From: Bacteroidales bacterium
GTDB lineage: Bacteria > Bacteroidota > Bacteroidia > Bacteroidales > PUMT01
Assembly: GCA_007120695.1 (NCBI GenBank)
Contig: SKND01000143.1
Location: 1-47,186 of the forward strand
Reading direction: 5' to 3'
DNA: 47,186 nucleotides
The position numbers and the translations under genes are program-made. Shown here one piece after another: positions 1 to 47,082 of this stretch (the stretch's first letter is position 1; the number at the start of each line of letters is the position of its first letter). The notes under the pieces were generated by a model. That model had not been told where the DNA came from, did not search any database, and was given only the letters and a program-made list of their open reading frames with translations.

Positions 1-160
1 AATTTTTTAATCTGAAATTACACACAGACAGATGAAAAAATTTCATGGGAAAGCGCAGCGGTTCCGACTGTAAGCATAAATTTTGGATATTTTTTATTAC
101 AAAATTTATGCTTTTTTACAGAAGAAATGTACATGAAATTTTTTAATCTGAATTTTTCAT
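1..160 (+). repeat. Dispersed two-hairpin intergenic repeat, copy A (left end probably outside window; partial second start from about 115)
   Basis: Hairpin 1 arms 1-14 / 29-43 around loop AAATTACACACAGA; linker AAAGCGCAGCGGTTCCGACTGTAA; hairpin 2 GCATAAATTTTG (74-85) / CAAAATTTATGC (100-111) followed by TTTTTTACAGAAGAAAT. Same blocks recur in copies B and C. Confidence 0.85.
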
Positions 161-226
161 CAGACAAATTTAGCAAAATGTAAAGCTGGTTACATGAAAA
201 ATCGACGCAGTCAAATTACACATATC

Positions 227-1177
227 TCAGGATTCTCCGATCAATCCCCGTCCTCTCTTGATAATCCGGTTTTCCTGCCTGAGTTGCTGTATTATATTGT
301 CCAGTATCCCGTTTATAAAATTGCTGCTCTTCTCGGTACTGTAAAATTTGGCAATCTCGATATATTCATTAAAAGTGACCCGTGTGGGAATTGAATCATT
401 TTCAAGTATTTCGGCAATGGCAAGCTCCATTATCAGAATATCCATGAAGGCTATTCTTTCCACATCCCAGTTACGGGTGTGATGGTCGATTAGCTTTTCA
501 TATTCACTGTGATGCAACACAATATTCCTGAAGAGCTTTTTAACAAACTCCCTGTCATCTTCATCCTTAAAAAGTGAAAAAACCGGAACCGGCTGTCCGC
601 CTGGACCTGAGTATTTTTTCAGACTTTTTTCAGTCATGCGGACTGCAAATTCAAGGTCATCATTCCAGTATATGCTCCTCTCCTCGAGTACCTGATCAAG
701 TGATAACGAGGTTAAAACAAAGTCATCGAGAATTTGTATTGTGAATTTTTTATCCGACCGCCAGGTTTGCTCCGGTTCGTCCATATAATGACGGTAAATA
801 TCGCTCTCAATTAGCTGGTTGTATAGCTCCCTTATCAGTTCCGGGTTGTTGACCCATGAAACTTTATATTTTCTTAAGTAATTATTGAGTTGTTCATGTT
901 CAACGAGGTGTCTTATAAGAAGATTGTCGATAAAACGTGTATTGGGATTGAGGTCTTCATGGCGGGGAGACAACTTTGACCGGGCCAGGTCGATCCTCTT
1001 CCCTGCGTACCGGGAAATATCAATCAGGAGCAAATAAAGTGAAAGGTAAAGTTCCCAGGTTTTTTCTATGCTGAAAAACAGTTCTTTCTCCGATTTATCA
1101 AGTGACTCCAATCCGGATTTAAAATATGCATAAGCTGCCTGTAAAACCTTTATTCTCAATAACCTTCTGCTTATCAT
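227..1177 (-). CDS. nusB: Transcription antitermination factor NusB (long Bacteroidota type)
   Basis: 316 aa; N-term MISRRLLRIKVLQAAYAYFKSG and C-term RVTFNEYIEIAKFYSTEKSSNFINGILD match the NusB core. Confidence 0.95.
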   Translation of the reverse strand: MISRRLLRIKVLQAAYAYFKSGLESLDKSEKELFFSIEKTWELYLSLYLLLIDISRYAGKRIDLARSKLSPRHEDLNPNTRFIDNLLIRHLVEHEQLNNYLRKYKVSWVNNPELIRELYNQLIESDIYRHYMDEPEQTWRSDKKFTIQILDDFVLTSLSLDQVLEERSIYWNDDLEFAVRMTEKSLKKYSGPGGQPVPVFSLFKDEDDREFVKKLFRNIVLHHSEYEKLIDHHTRNWDVERIAFMDILIMELAIAEILENDSIPTRVTFNEYIEIAKFYSTEKSSNFINGILDNIIQQLRQENRIIKRGRGLIGES

Positions 1178-1274
1178 CTTATTTAAAGAGCCTCTGTATC
1201 ATTACTTAAAGAGGTGCAAAGTAAACACTTTTTACCCAAAGAATCCTGATTTTTTGAATAATTAATCTGAATAT

Positions 1275-1425
1275 TTACAGAAGAAATATACATTAAATTT
1301 TTTCTGCGTAAAATTACACACAGACGCATGAAAAAATTTATTGTTAAAGCGCAGCGGTTCCGACTGTAAACCAAAATTTTGTTTATTATATTTTGACAAA
1401 ATTTTGGCTTTTTTACAGGAGAAAT
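1275..1425 (+). repeat. Dispersed two-hairpin intergenic repeat, copy B
   Basis: TTACAGAAGAAATATACATT; hairpin 1 arms 1295-1309 / 1324-1339 (TGCGT/ACGCA); linker AAAGCGCAGCGGTTCCGACTGTAA; hairpin 2 CCAAAATTTTG (1371-1381) / CAAAATTTTGG (1397-1407); TTTTTTACAGGAGAAAT. Confidence 0.88.
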
Positions 1426-9131: not shown

Positions 9132-10517
9132 CTAAAAAAATAGCATTGATACCACACTGAAATAGATCAGCAATCCAGTAATATCGACCATAGTAGTAAT
9201 TGCGGGACTGGCGGCAACGGCCGGATCTCCACCCAGCTTTTTGACCAGAAGCGGCAGACCGGCACCAATAATTGTAGATGAAATCACCTGGAGACATAAT
9301 GCTCCGGAAATCGCCAAAGCAATGAACAGAAGATTGTATTCAGGGGGAATCTCTGTTTCCCATGACAGGAACAGGATCTTTCCGAATGCAATGATCCCCA
9401 GCACAATGGAGAGAAGAAAGGATATCCGGGCCTCCTTGAAAAGTATATTAACCCAGTTTTTCAATGAGATCTGGCCCAGCGCAAGTGCCCTTATGACCAT
9501 AGTTGCGGCCTGCGAGCCTGCATTACCTCCCGTATCGGCAATCATTGGCATGTAGAGTGCCAGGATAATCAACGACGACATAGCCTCCTCATAACTATGG
9601 ATTATCATTCCCGAGATGATCCCGATAATTCCCAGGGAGGAGAGCCAAACGACCCTCTTCCTGAAATGACCTAAAACTCCTGTTTCCACGTAGTTCAGAT
9701 CTTCGGTCCCCGAAACTATTCCCATGAATTTCTCCAGATCTTCAGTATGCTCGGCACGAATAACGTCAATTGCCTCGTCATGGCGAACAATTCCGGCAAG
9801 CTGCCTGTGTGCGTTCAACACAGGAATGGCAACCATGTCATATTTCTCTATCTTCCGGGCAACACTCTCCCTGTCCTCATTCACATCAGCCCACACATAG
9901 TCGGTCTGCAGAACATCCTTGACAAGGGTATCCGGCTGTGCCATTATTATATCCTTCAGAGTGATAAACCCCTTCATCTTCATATTCTCATCTACTACAT
10001 AGATGTAATAGATCATCTTCCTGGAAGGAGCATCATGTCTAATCTTTTCAATAGCCTGAGTTACGGTCATCTCTGCCTGTACCGTGGCGAAATCGGTTAT
10101 CATGATACTTCCCGCAGTCTCTTCCGGGAATGAACTAAGGAATAACACATCTTCGCGAATCTTTTTATCAAGAAATGGCAGGAGCTCAAGCTGCTGATCC
10201 TTGTCAAGATCCTGGTAAAGGTCGGCCCTGATATCGGACGACATATTGGTAAATATCCTTGCAAAAATCCTTCTGTCAATCAGATCAAATAGCTCCAGCA
10301 GCAGCTCCATATCCATATTGGACGCTATATAACCCAGGTCTTCGTCAGAGAAGACCGGCAGTAGCTGCAATACCTGTTCATGGGTCAGATTCTGGAGAAT
10401 ATCGGCTATCTCCACTGCCGGCATTTTTTTCAGGATTGCTGCCAGTGCTTCCATCTCATTTGCCTCAGCCAGTCCCCGAACAATCGACTTCCTCTGGTCT
10501 GTTATCAGATTTTCCAT
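9132..10517 (-). CDS. mgtE: Magnesium transporter MgtE
   Basis: N-domain, CBS pair and TM domain: PMIADTGGNAGSQAATMVIRALALG. Confidence 0.97.
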   Translation of the reverse strand: MENLITDQRKSIVRGLAEANEMEALAAILKKMPAVEIADILQNLTHEQVLQLLPVFSDEDLGYIASNMDMELLLELFDLIDRRIFARIFTNMSSDIRADLYQDLDKDQQLELLPFLDKKIREDVLFLSSFPEETAGSIMITDFATVQAEMTVTQAIEKIRHDAPSRKMIYYIYVVDENMKMKGFITLKDIIMAQPDTLVKDVLQTDYVWADVNEDRESVARKIEKYDMVAIPVLNAHRQLAGIVRHDEAIDVIRAEHTEDLEKFMGIVSGTEDLNYVETGVLGHFRKRVVWLSSLGIIGIISGMIIHSYEEAMSSLIILALYMPMIADTGGNAGSQAATMVIRALALGQISLKNWVNILFKEARISFLLSIVLGIIAFGKILFLSWETEIPPEYNLLFIALAISGALCLQVISSTIIGAGLPLLVKKLGGDPAVAASPAITTMVDITGLLIYFSVVSMLFF

Positions 10518-10625: not shown

Positions 10626-10686
10626 ATCCATCAATCCATCCCGGCATGCGGTAGTTACCGATTGATAATTAAAATTGCCCCTTGTT

Positions 10687-10843
10687 GAGTTTTAGCTCTG
10701 AATGACTTATTCCTCGGAAAATGGAAAGCTGCATTATGCCAAGCCTTAATCCGGCAGGGCCTGTTCTACCCATTGGCGTCTGTGGACGTTTTTGGGCAGC
10801 AGCCTGTGTTCATTCAGTAGCCTCACCTAACAGGCTAAAACCG
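10687..10843 (-). promoter_or_regulatory. M-box (ykoK leader) Mg2+ riboswitch controlling mgtE
   Basis: Minus strand: GTTTTAGC-CTGTTAGGTGAGGCTACTG...GCTGCTGCCCAAAAACGTCCACAGACGCCAATGGGTAGAACAG...AATGCAGC...GAGCTAAAAC. P1 GTTTTAGC/GCTAAAAC pairs; core matches the M-box consensus. Confidence 0.95.
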
Positions 10844-10855: not shown

Positions 10856-10917
10856 TAAAATTACAGTATAAAAAAAAACCTTACCATGAGTGATTATTAA
10901 ATTTACCAATAAACCGT

Positions 10918-11031
10918 CTGTTACAATATTTTCAATATGCTTACAGAAGGAATCGCTGCGCTTTAACATTAAATTTTTTCATGTGTATGTGTGTAATTTT
11001 ACACAGAAAGAATTCAATGTATATTTGGTTT
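10918..11031 (-). repeat. Dispersed two-hairpin intergenic repeat, copy C (inverted)
   Basis: Reverse complement AAATATACATTGAATTCTTTCTGTGTAAAATTACACACATACACATGAAAAAATTTAATGTTAAAGCGCAGCGATTCCTTCTGTAA aligns almost end to end with copy B; TGTGT/ACACA stem. Confidence 0.85.
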
Positions 11032-11106: not shown

Positions 11107-12564
11107 ATGAACAGACTGCAAAAACTGGAACCAGAAATCATCTGGAAATATTTTGAAGATATTTGCGGGGTCCCTCGTCCCTCCAAAAAAGAGGATAAAA
11201 TAATTAACTTTCTGACTGAATTCTCAAAGAATCACGATCTGGAATGCAAAAAAGATCAGGCTGGAAATATCCTGATAACCAAACCGGCTTCTCGCGGATT
11301 TGAGAGAAAGAAGACGGTGGTCCTTCAAAGCCATATGGACATGGTTGGGGAAAAGAACTCTGAAACAGATCACAATTTTGAAACTGATCCTGTAGAACCA
11401 TTCATTGATGGTGAATGGATCAGGGCTAAAGGAACAACCCTGGGTGCCGATGATGGCATAGGAATGGCAGCTCAGCTCGCAATTCTATCAACAGACTCTG
11501 TCACACATGGTAAACTGGAGTGCCTGTTTACTGTTGATGAAGAGACGGGTTTGACAGGAGCTTTTGCACTAAAGCCAGGTTTTTTTGAAGGTAAGATACT
11601 TATCAACCTCGATTCAGAGGATGAGGGCGAACTTTTTATAGGATGTGCCGGCGGTATCGACACCCTGGCAACAATGGAGTTCGATACAGAAGATATACCT
11701 GCCTCTCATTCAGGGTTTATTGTGAAGGTAGAAGGCCTGACGGGCGGTCATTCAGGAGACGATATTCATAGAGGAAGGGGAAATTCCAACAAGATACTTA
11801 ACAGGTTTCTATGGAACCTGAACAACAGGTTCGATATGAAACTTGTTAGATTTGACGGTGGTAACCTGCGAAATGCAATACCAAGAGAGGCAGAAGCACT
11901 TTTTTCCATACACCGTGATGATACAGGCCCGATGAATGATTATTTTGCCTCATTCAAAGAAATAGTAGCTGCAGAGATGTCAGATGCCGAACCTGGTTTT
12001 GTTATTACGCTGGAGAATGCAGAAATTGCAGGTCCCGCAATTGATGAAGATTCTCAGCTGGACCTTCTCTACTCACTGTATGCCTGTCCCAATGGTGTGA
12101 TCTCCTGGAGCAGAAAAATTAAAGACCTTGTTGAAACGTCCACAAACCTGGCTTCTGTGAAATTTGTCGATAACAGAATTTTGATTACAACAAGTCAGCG
12201 CTCCTCATCTGATTCGGCAAAAGCCGATGTAGTATCAATGGTGGAGAGTGTCTTCCGGCTGGCAAATGCCAATGTAAAGAAATCAGGAGGTTATCCTGGC
12301 TGGAAACCTGACCAGGATTCAGAGATTCTCCGGATAACCAGGTCGGTTTATAAAAAACTTTTCAATACAGAACCTGTGGTAAGGGCTATCCACGCAGGAC
12401 TGGAATGTGGTTTGTTTCTTGAGAAATACCCGGATCTGGATATGATATCCATCGGACCGACCATCAAGGGTGCACACTCACCGGATGAGAGGCTGCATAT
12501 AGAGTCAGTACGAAAATTCTGGGATCTCCTGGCCGGAGTTCTGAAGGATATTCCTGAAAATTAG
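11107..12564 (+). CDS. pepD: Aminoacyl-histidine dipeptidase (Xaa-His dipeptidase, M20)
   Basis: LEPEIIWKYFEDICGVPRPSKKE, LQSHMDMVGEKN, GTTLGADDGIGMA, GGHSGDDIHRGRGN. Confidence 0.95.
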   Translation: MNRLQKLEPEIIWKYFEDICGVPRPSKKEDKIINFLTEFSKNHDLECKKDQAGNILITKPASRGFERKKTVVLQSHMDMVGEKNSETDHNFETDPVEPFIDGEWIRAKGTTLGADDGIGMAAQLAILSTDSVTHGKLECLFTVDEETGLTGAFALKPGFFEGKILINLDSEDEGELFIGCAGGIDTLATMEFDTEDIPASHSGFIVKVEGLTGGHSGDDIHRGRGNSNKILNRFLWNLNNRFDMKLVRFDGGNLRNAIPREAEALFSIHRDDTGPMNDYFASFKEIVAAEMSDAEPGFVITLENAEIAGPAIDEDSQLDLLYSLYACPNGVISWSRKIKDLVETSTNLASVKFVDNRILITTSQRSSSDSAKADVVSMVESVFRLANANVKKSGGYPGWKPDQDSEILRITRSVYKKLFNTEPVVRAIHAGLECGLFLEKYPDLDMISIGPTIKGAHSPDERLHIESVRKFWDLLAGVLKDIPEN

Positions 12565-44523: not shown

Positions 44524-44567
44524 TGATTTTTTTCATCCGTTTGTTTGTAATTTACGCATAAAAAATT
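44524..44567 (-). repeat. Degenerate hairpin-1-only copy of the dispersed repeat, copy D
   Basis: Reverse complement CAATTTTTTATGCGTAAATTACAAACAAACGGATGAAAAAAATC aligns with hairpin 1 of copy B. Confidence 0.6.
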
Positions 44568-44670
44568 GACCTGCGGTCGATTTCTCATTCTAATTTCAAC
44601 ACATTGCAGTAATATTGATCCGATGAGAAATTAATATATTTGATTCTACCATAACCAAAACCAAATCCAA

Positions 44671-47082
44671 ATGCAATTATTCAGAAAAATTCTCACTGTA
44701 ACAGGCATCGTTTTGCTTATTCTCCTTGTAGCAGGCTTTATAATTATTAGAAACATATCAAGAAAAGCACTGCCGGATTATAACCTGGATGTTACAATTG
44801 AAGGTCTTGCAGGAGAAGTGACGGTAATAAGGGATCCACATGCAGTACCGGCAATAATTGCGGAAAATGAGAATGACCTCTACCGGGCCGTCGGATATGT
44901 AATGGCCCAGGACAGGCTCTGGCAGATGGACCTGCTAAGAAGGGTAACAACCGGCCGGCTGTCGGAAATGTTTGGAGAAGATATGGTTGACACAGACCTG
45001 CTGTTACGTTCGTTGCGTATTCCCGAAAAAACAGAGCTGGTTCTCCGGCAAACCGACCAGGAGGTGATGAATGCCCTGGAAGCATTCTCCGATGGAGTGA
45101 ACCAGTTCATAGACATGAACCGAGGTAACCTGCCCCCAGAGTTTACTATTCTCGGTTACGAACCTGAATACTGGGAGCCGTCACATTCAGTCAACCTTAC
45201 CGGTTATATGGCATGGGACCTGAACATGGGCTGGTCTACCGAGGTAGTATTGCATAAACTGCGGGAAAAGATTGACGACGATAAGTTCAGGGAACTTATA
45301 CCCGACCTTGATATGCACCCAAGCTATGTTTTTCCGGCAGGGATGCTCTCAAAAGCAGAGCTCCGGTCGGTACTCATGGAGCAATCGTCGAAACTACAGG
45401 AAAAAGGGCTCCTTATCTTTAGCGGGAGTAACAACTGGGCAGTATCGGGAGAGAAGAGCACAACGGGCAAGCCCATATTTGCCAACGATATGCACCTGGG
45501 ACTATTTGCACCGGGTATATGGTACCAGATGCACCATATCATAGAGGGAGAGCTTAACGTTACTGGTGTCGTACTCCCCGGCCAGCCCTTTGTCATTTCA
45601 GGCCACAATGAAAGAATAGCCTGGGGGATGACCAACGTGATGCTGGATGATATGGACTTCTATCTTGAAACAGTAAATCCTGATAACCCACGCCAGTATA
45701 TGTATATGGGGGAATGGATAGATATGGAGGTGCGCACGGAGACGATACAAACCGGAAAAAACAGTTCTGTTGAAAAGGAGCTCCTCTTTACACACAGGGG
45801 CCCGGTTATCTCCGATTTCAAAGACGTGGATGATCAGGTTATCTCGATGAAATGGACAGGTAATGAATACAGTAACGAGGTACGAAGCGTATACCTCCTG
45901 AACCGGGCCGGTAACTGGGAGGAGTTCAGGGAGGCTCTCACCACATTTTTGTCAGTCAGCCAGAACATCAATTATGCTGACGTAGATGGCAATATTGGGT
46001 TGCAGACCGCTGCGGGTATACCAATCAGGGAGGGCAGAGGAATATTCATTGTCTCGGGTGAAGACAATACATACGACTGGAAGGGGTTTGTACCCTTTGA
46101 GGAATTACCTTCGGTGTATAATCCGCCATCAGGTTTTGTCGCTTCTGCAAACAACAGAACAGTGCCTGATGATTATCCCTACTATATAAGTTACTGGTTC
46201 GACCCGCCAAACAGGTACGATCGCATAAGTGAGATGCTGATGGAAAAAGAGAGGCTTTCGACAGACGATTTCAAGGCAATAATGGGAGACAAGAAATCAA
46301 AAATGACTGAAAGGATCCTTCCTCGACTGCTCCATGAACTTGGAGGTATATCAAGACCAACAATAACCGGACGTCGTGCAATTGAGATGCTTGCCGGATG
46401 GGACCTGACCTACGGTCCGGATCGTGCGGAACCACTGATATTCGAAAAATTCTACATGCAGTTTATTGAAAATCTGCTTCTCGCAGATATGGGAGAAGAG
46501 CTTTACAATGAGTTTATCGGAAGTAAAATACTTGTACGCAATCTTGTTGACCAGATATGGTTCAGAAGAGAATCGGCCTGGTTCAAAGGAGACAAAACCC
46601 AAACTGGCCCCGGCACGTTTTCAGATATAGTGCACAAAAGCTTTTATGAAGCAATCGAATGGGCAGAGCTCAATTTCGGACCTAATCCTGACAGATGGGC
46701 ATGGGGAGATGTTCATAAGCTCACTCTTGACCATCACATCGGATCTGTAAGGATTATCGACAGGTTGTTCAAACTTAACAGGGGGCCATGGTCGCCGGGA
46801 GGAAGCTTCCATACAGTATGCCCCTATTCATACAGCTTCACAAATCCTTTTGACATTAATCACGGGGCTTCACAGAGGCATATTTACTCAACCGGCAACT
46901 GGGACGATTCCTTCTCGGTAATTCCCACGGGAACATCAGGTATTCCTGCAAGCGATTACTATTGCGATCAGACTGATATGTATGTCAATGGTCTCTACAG
47001 GGAGGATGTTTTTTCAAAAACGAAGGTTGAGAATGCGGGAAGGTACAGGATGAAAATGATCCCGGCACAAAACAAAGATTAA
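44671..47082 (+). CDS. Penicillin acylase family (Ntn-hydrolase) protein
   Basis: GLAGEVTVIRDPHAVPAIIAENENDLYRAVGYVMAQDRLWQMDLLRR; autocatalytic site GSNNWAVSGEKSTTGKPIFANDMHL. Confidence 0.95.
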   Translation: MQLFRKILTVTGIVLLILLVAGFIIIRNISRKALPDYNLDVTIEGLAGEVTVIRDPHAVPAIIAENENDLYRAVGYVMAQDRLWQMDLLRRVTTGRLSEMFGEDMVDTDLLLRSLRIPEKTELVLRQTDQEVMNALEAFSDGVNQFIDMNRGNLPPEFTILGYEPEYWEPSHSVNLTGYMAWDLNMGWSTEVVLHKLREKIDDDKFRELIPDLDMHPSYVFPAGMLSKAELRSVLMEQSSKLQEKGLLIFSGSNNWAVSGEKSTTGKPIFANDMHLGLFAPGIWYQMHHIIEGELNVTGVVLPGQPFVISGHNERIAWGMTNVMLDDMDFYLETVNPDNPRQYMYMGEWIDMEVRTETIQTGKNSSVEKELLFTHRGPVISDFKDVDDQVISMKWTGNEYSNEVRSVYLLNRAGNWEEFREALTTFLSVSQNINYADVDGNIGLQTAAGIPIREGRGIFIVSGEDNTYDWKGFVPFEELPSVYNPPSGFVASANNRTVPDDYPYYISYWFDPPNRYDRISEMLMEKERLSTDDFKAIMGDKKSKMTERILPRLLHELGGISRPTITGRRAIEMLAGWDLTYGPDRAEPLIFEKFYMQFIENLLLADMGEELYNEFIGSKILVRNLVDQIWFRRESAWFKGDKTQTGPGTFSDIVHKSFYEAIEWAELNFGPNPDRWAWGDVHKLTLDHHIGSVRIIDRLFKLNRGPWSPGGSFHTVCPYSYSFTNPFDINHGASQRHIYSTGNWDDSFSVIPTGTSGIPASDYYCDQTDMYVNGLYREDVFSKTKVENAGRYRMKMIPAQNKD

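Follow-up and report, generated by a model that had tools for sequence, protein, structure and literature searches.

The window analysed here, a stretch of 47,186 nucleotides that is the whole of contig C339 from a MAG (G000) of 3.76 Mb and 89% completeness, carries several copies of a short hairpin-forming sequence, which raises the question of what kind of element this is and how it came to lie where it does. The original prediction had described three copies (A, B and C) and a decayed fourth (D), and had hesitated between an sRNA or UTR element, a REP/MITE-like element mobilised in trans, and a protein-binding cruciform.

Copies A, B and C represent one element of about 137 bp, composed of hairpin 1, a mini-hairpin and hairpin 2. 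A covariance model (R1; 137 positions, 41 pairs), built on 42 simple copies among which B was included and A and C were left out, matched the three with 122.8, 130.2 and 80.5 bits, respectively, confirming that they are real and share a common architecture. Copy A (1-128, plus strand; R1 match 1-126, model positions 13-137) is truncated on its left, because the window is the whole contig and the contig end cuts it; it retains hairpin 1 (ATCTG/CAGAT), the mini-hairpin, hairpin 2 (GCATAAATTTTG/CAAAATTTATGC) and the right end GAAAT. Inspection of the sequence shows that another copy sets in to the right of A (AAATGTACATGAAATTTTTTAATCTGA; 125-222, plus strand), with an unrelated hairpin and mini-hairpin element of ~62 bp nested in its loop at 152-213. 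Copy B is complete (1284-1425, plus strand; R1 match 1284-1423, model positions 1-137) and stands in tandem with the right-end remnant (TTTACAGAAG) of a lost copy (1274-1283, plus strand). It begins with AAAT followed by TrTACAT and ends with CAGGAGAAAT. Alignment and pair counts place its hairpin 1, with the loop AAAATTACACACAG, at 1291-1343; the mini-hairpin, with a GNA triloop and its first pair open (pair counts in columns 66-81, DNA fold), lies at 1345-1360, and hairpin 2 with an outer CTGTAA/TTACAG helix (pair counts in columns 82-149) at 1361-1421, all on the plus strand. Left of B, a nusB-type gene (227-1177, minus strand; Pfam NusB, 1.9e-22) has its start side facing the element.

Copy C (10913-11026, minus strand) is partly decayed. 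Its junction with the flank forms a -7-type box, TATATTTG (11020-11027, plus strand), facing the adjoining M20 peptidase gene (11107-12564, plus strand; Pfam), whose orthologues were used for the empty-site comparison below. This copy is exceptional in that a second, native-looking box sits closer to its gene. On its other side C adjoins an M-box magnesium riboswitch (10671-10841, minus strand; 148.9 bits), located upstream of an MgtE transporter gene (9132-10517, minus strand). Remnant D (44524-44641, minus strand, from the sequence; blastn match 44528-44567) is decayed, as had been supposed: a hairpin 1 remains recognisable, with another small hairpin and mini-hairpin element of ~65 bp inserted in its left arm. 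The same box, TATATTTG, occurs at the junction of D with its flank (44635-44642, plus strand), 28 nt 5' of the start codon, at 44671, of a penicillin amidase family gene (44671-47082, plus strand; Pfam, 2.4e-216).

The small elements nested in arms and loops of the main element form a second, independent group of 60-75 bp, present in the window at 152-213 and ~44568-44633 and at loci L030, L034, L041, L059, L040, L044, L104 and L105. Each consists of a hairpin with a variable stem, ending CATC...CATG, and then a mini-hairpin of the form CGAC-loop-GTCA; several different stems and loops occur, and the insertions lie at TNA^AATT-like points. A third element of ~150-180 bp, starting with TCCTCATC and containing a CCTCAT/ATGAGG hairpin, has AAA on both sides and was seen at L041, L048, L050, L051, L083, L086, L094 and L095; two contigs (C18 and C153) end inside it, and a longer version may therefore exist.

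The stems of the main element had been proposed to covary under selection for structure, and this was borne out. Copy B folds far more stably than shuffled sequences (z = -5.9 as RNA, -6.6 as DNA), and the 42-copy alignment displays covariation against shuffles in all helices, that is hairpin 1, the central mini-hairpin, the outer helix and hairpin 2. In this alignment 91.9% of cells are paired, whereas shuffles give 85.2% and slid registers no more than 48.1%; both sides are changed in 102 cells, versus 24 in shuffles, although with shared ancestry these counts are not independent events. The predicted outer CTGTAA/TTACAG pairing is present, and the helix extends further out with compensating C-G/A-T and C-G/T-A changes. 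What had been taken for a conserved linker is indeed conserved but is not a mere linker, as it forms the mini-hairpin GAAA-GC-GMA-GC-GG-TTC (columns 66-81), in which G-C to A-T changes occur in three sequences. Its core, GC-GMA-GC, has the form of the GNA-triloop DNA hairpins of the d(GCGNAGC) type, which are very stable; aptamer work makes use of mini-hairpins of this kind. On well-defined pairs there are 60 G·T against 9 A·C cells (99 against 9 on all pairs), so that the fold is kept on one strand alone, the one running from hairpin 1 to hairpin 2. This argues against a double-stranded cruciform.

The element is widely dispersed, with 58 blastn and 52 covariance-model matches in its own genome where few or no further copies might have been found; among the blastn matches, those with hairpin 1 only outnumber those with hairpin 2 only. 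Covariance-model matches were obtained in all 16 genomes of the family (4-63 each). Outside it, related copies are patchy among other Bacteroidia: a search of 396 genomes of the class scored eight copies in G270, two in G397 and one in G238, and one further copy was found in a Croceivirga MAG. Almost all carriers with a name are Bacteroidales or Bacteroidetes MAGs from sediments, belonging to the CSSed and T3Sed series; these sediments are presumably from soda lakes. A contig with two typical copies (L118, PWMW01000073.1) is filed under a Clostridiales MAG of the same sediment series, probably by a binning error. The linker pattern had no match in 2.9 million viral contigs. No already named family was recovered either: none of the Rfam covariance models matched at gathering score, the best weak match in a relaxed Rfam search reached 14.6 bits against a cut-off of 124, and our literature search, which covered papers outside subscription, returned no paper with GTANNTTTGC and none on Bacteroidetes MITEs and promoters by the terms chosen.

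The copies are strongly oriented with respect to the genes on their left: 87 of these read away from the element and 13 towards it (binomial p = 1e-14), at a median of 35 nt from left end to start codon (gene calls being longest ORFs, single distances are approximate). For 59% of left ends such a start is no more than 60 nt away, versus 15% of control intergenic AAA sites. Right-hand genes are unbiased (22 versus 21). For 87 of 100 neighbouring genes, the strand carrying the structure is consequently the template strand. Judging by their translations, the neighbours presumably include panB (with dnaK on the other side), glyA, folP, etfB and lplA.

Comparison of orthologous loci reveals recent movement. 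Two copies of G002 have exact empty sites with a single AAAT in the near relative G005, and further loci are empty in relatives, from which we conclude that the element is mobile. At L222 the filled site reads GGCACGC-AAAT-ATACATGAAA...GGGAT-AAAT-GTAATTG and the empty one GGCACGC-AAAT-GTAATTG; at L013 they read CCCGC-AAAT-GTACAT...CAGGAG-AAAT-ATACAAAAATG and TCAGC-AAAT-ATACAAAAATG, respectively. At L067, G005, G008 and G009 have an uninterrupted CAAACCTA where G002 has the element, whose right side there is a partial tandem copy and whose end is accordingly not exact; the element also adjoins itself in tandem copies elsewhere. A copy between rpsB and tsf occurs only in G000, one of the 15 genomes where tsf was found, and copy C likewise occurs only in G000, being absent from all other orthologous loci with a readable upstream region. 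All genomes are draft MAGs, prone to losing repeats. At the panB locus, complete copies are present in G000 and G011 and hairpin 1-like remnants in a few relatives; the remaining ones show a plain promoter, which reads TAGGTTTG or TACGTTTA at the position of the element.

In the 40 solo copies, AAA on the left is always followed by T (40/40), which the element supplies, whereas the base following AAA on the right varies (35 T, 2 G, 2 A, 1 C), being that of the target. The crossover therefore falls between AAA and nn, or within AAA, and a target site duplication is rejected. The alignment of copies discloses no terminal inverted repeats (left TrTACATnAAATTTTTT, right TTTTTTACAGGAGAAA).

The insertion point, CAAA^nnTA, is the reverse of TAnn^TTTG, and TAnnTTTG is the -7 box recognised by sigma-A in Bacteroidetes, extending from -12 to -5 (PMC9723704, PMC7366714). 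When the element is removed in silico, 31 of the 40 solo copies yield a perfect box (CAAAnnTA; the C is there in 35 and the TA in 33), compared with 1.2% of 25,106 AAA sites at the same loci. The relatives at L013 have GCAAATATAC, GCAAAGATAC and GCAAAGGTAC, all valid native -7 boxes. The left end of the element, TrTA(CAT), restores a box facing the gene (TAyATTTG), and the TA half of the native box is moved to the far end. In the window, the TATATTTG at the junctions of copy C and remnant D is such a rebuilt box. Judged from the sequences, insertion into the -7 box is precise and the box rebuilt on the gene side is perfect; the original prediction had missed both that the left end forms a promoter box and that this same box is the target. 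The rebuilt box probably lets the hit gene still be switched on. No -33 promoter part is clearly recognisable in the element; a candidate in the loop of hairpin 1 (GTAATTT, ~19 bp from the -7 box) was discarded for its weak match to the published TTTG/TTG/TGTG. At L197 and L201, both upstream of panB, and at L024, remains of hairpin 1, decayed or partial, retain CTGTGTGTAATTT...TGTAyATTTG before genes and are possibly domesticated promoters.

The promoter-box target is unusual and well supported, and the element represents a new miniature mobile element family. We hold it to be likely that it is a miniature non-autonomous element, mobilised in trans, that splits and rebuilds -7 boxes through a folded single-stranded DNA intermediate; the REP/MITE-like nature initially envisaged is thereby supported as an interpretation. 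The element inserts in the core of the box, between CAAA and nnTA, without target duplication, and its first bases TrTA(CAT) rebuild the box; the hit gene would thereby stay expressed, and insertions before essential genes would survive. Movement as folded single-stranded DNA is suggested by the strand imbalance, the identity of the folded strand with the template strand and the resemblance of the ends to those of the IS200/IS605 type. The folded strand would in that case be a transposition intermediate, and its hairpins may be recognition marks for a recombinase. A bolder version, which we consider doubtful, is a joining of the folded strand to the template strand of the -7 box while RNA polymerase holds the box open, the end being tuned to rebuild the box and promoters of essential genes being safe landing sites.

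The main rival of trans mobilisation through single-stranded DNA is a route through tyrosine recombination, in which a circle would spread by site-specific recombination at the AAAnnTA core, using an enzyme of the IntDOT kind or the host Xer. Element ends and target share AAAnnTA(C), the bases flanking AAA at each junction come from different partners, and copies accrete in tandem. Moreover, the target of CTnDOT, GTAnnTTTGC, is the same motif as the TAnnTTTG found at 31 of 40 sites. CTnDOT/IntDOT-type elements also resemble the element in recombining without strict homology (PMC6316836), but the latter measures 137 bp, has no genes and strong hairpins, and no IntDOT-type enzyme is evident in several carriers. 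No tyrosine recombinase gene was found adjoining any copy. Most carriers have only two or three Phage_integrase matches, with no obvious dedicated tyrosine recombinase in several, and G013, G009 and G011, which have many copies, have only two each, most of them apparently Xer-sized and one a fragment. Nor does this route alone explain hairpins selected on one strand, and we regard it as unlikely.

Selection instead of targeting offers another reading: copies would arrive at promoters by chance, and only those acting as useful promoters would survive. The closeness of left ends to genes and the persistence of hairpin 1 halves in decayed copies are in line with this, but the native TA half at the far right, no longer needed, is still present in 33 of 40 solo copies, and neutral insertions elsewhere should survive too; we find this improbable. 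Even less credit can be given to a structured RNA, whether an sRNA or a 5' UTR regulator. Covariation and tolerance of G-T pairs fit RNA equally well; however, most copies have their folded strand antisense to the promoter beside them, Rfam has no match, and the insertions are recent and at unrelated genes. Finally, an ordinary decaying repeat or a DDE-type MITE with terminal inverted repeats is scarcely credible, as the AAA on both sides can be read as a 3-bp duplication but is fixed in all copies, the base after it differs between sides according to the target, the ends are not inverted repeats, and covariation is strong.

Returning to a miniature element mobilised in trans, the observation that no transposase lies near the copies in the window holds. 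A Y1 transposase (PF01797) was found neither in G000 nor in G002, G007, G008, G011 and G012 (6 of 13 genus genomes), and none elsewhere is linked to an element copy; G002 is 98% complete and has recent insertions, yet is among the genomes without it. On these grounds a Y1 enzyme was set aside as the mobiliser. An IS91-type Y2 transposase was also set aside, since 12 genomes yielded only a single near-complete match and a fragment of 32 aa, both unlinked. On contig C118 of G004 (L273, L291), an IS91-type Y2 transposase gene with one in-frame TGA stands beside a tyrosine recombinase gene, unlinked to the element.

Several known systems share some of these properties. The BOX elements of Streptococcus pneumoniae are, like the element, modular and mosaic hairpin repeats near genes; they differ in sequence and phylum and are not known to have a promoter-box target. 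REP/REPIN sequences with their RAYT (TnpA-REP) enzymes (PMC3116915, PMC8266576) are similarly small, intergenic, hairpin-forming and present in many copies, and are moved in trans via presumed single-stranded DNA intermediates. The element differs from them by its three-hairpin unit of 137 bp with precise ends and a promoter-box target, and by the lack of a Y1 gene in several carriers, its own genome included; neither a GTAG nor a CGTC tag was seen at its ends in the alignment of copies. PATEs and non-autonomous IS200/IS605 elements (PMC7290912; family in PMC6006769) likewise have hairpins near both ends, cause no target duplication and insert 3' of a fixed short sequence (here CAAA), with a right end that resembles the target (here GAAA). 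The element agrees with PATEs in its one-strand structure and in insertion 3' of a fixed tetranucleotide without duplication. Unlike them, no cognate Y1 was found for it, and its target is also set on the other side (nnTA), coinciding with the -7 box. By eye, the 42-copy alignment has no clear TTTG-like guide 5' of either hairpin. Lastly, the IS upstream of cfiA, nim and erm in Bacteroides (PMC6927303) are also mobile DNA with an outward TAnnTTTG box, but these are full IS that carry promoters, whereas the element encodes nothing and splits and rebuilds an existing box.

Mobile elements that bring promoters are already known; insertion inside a core box together with its rebuilding would, if true, be a new solution to harmless landing. 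The covariance model and the exact empty sites make this targeting directly testable. A further consequence would be a promoter exchange at dozens of genes in each genome, among them core genes such as panB and glyA, for which relatives with the intact site are natural controls.
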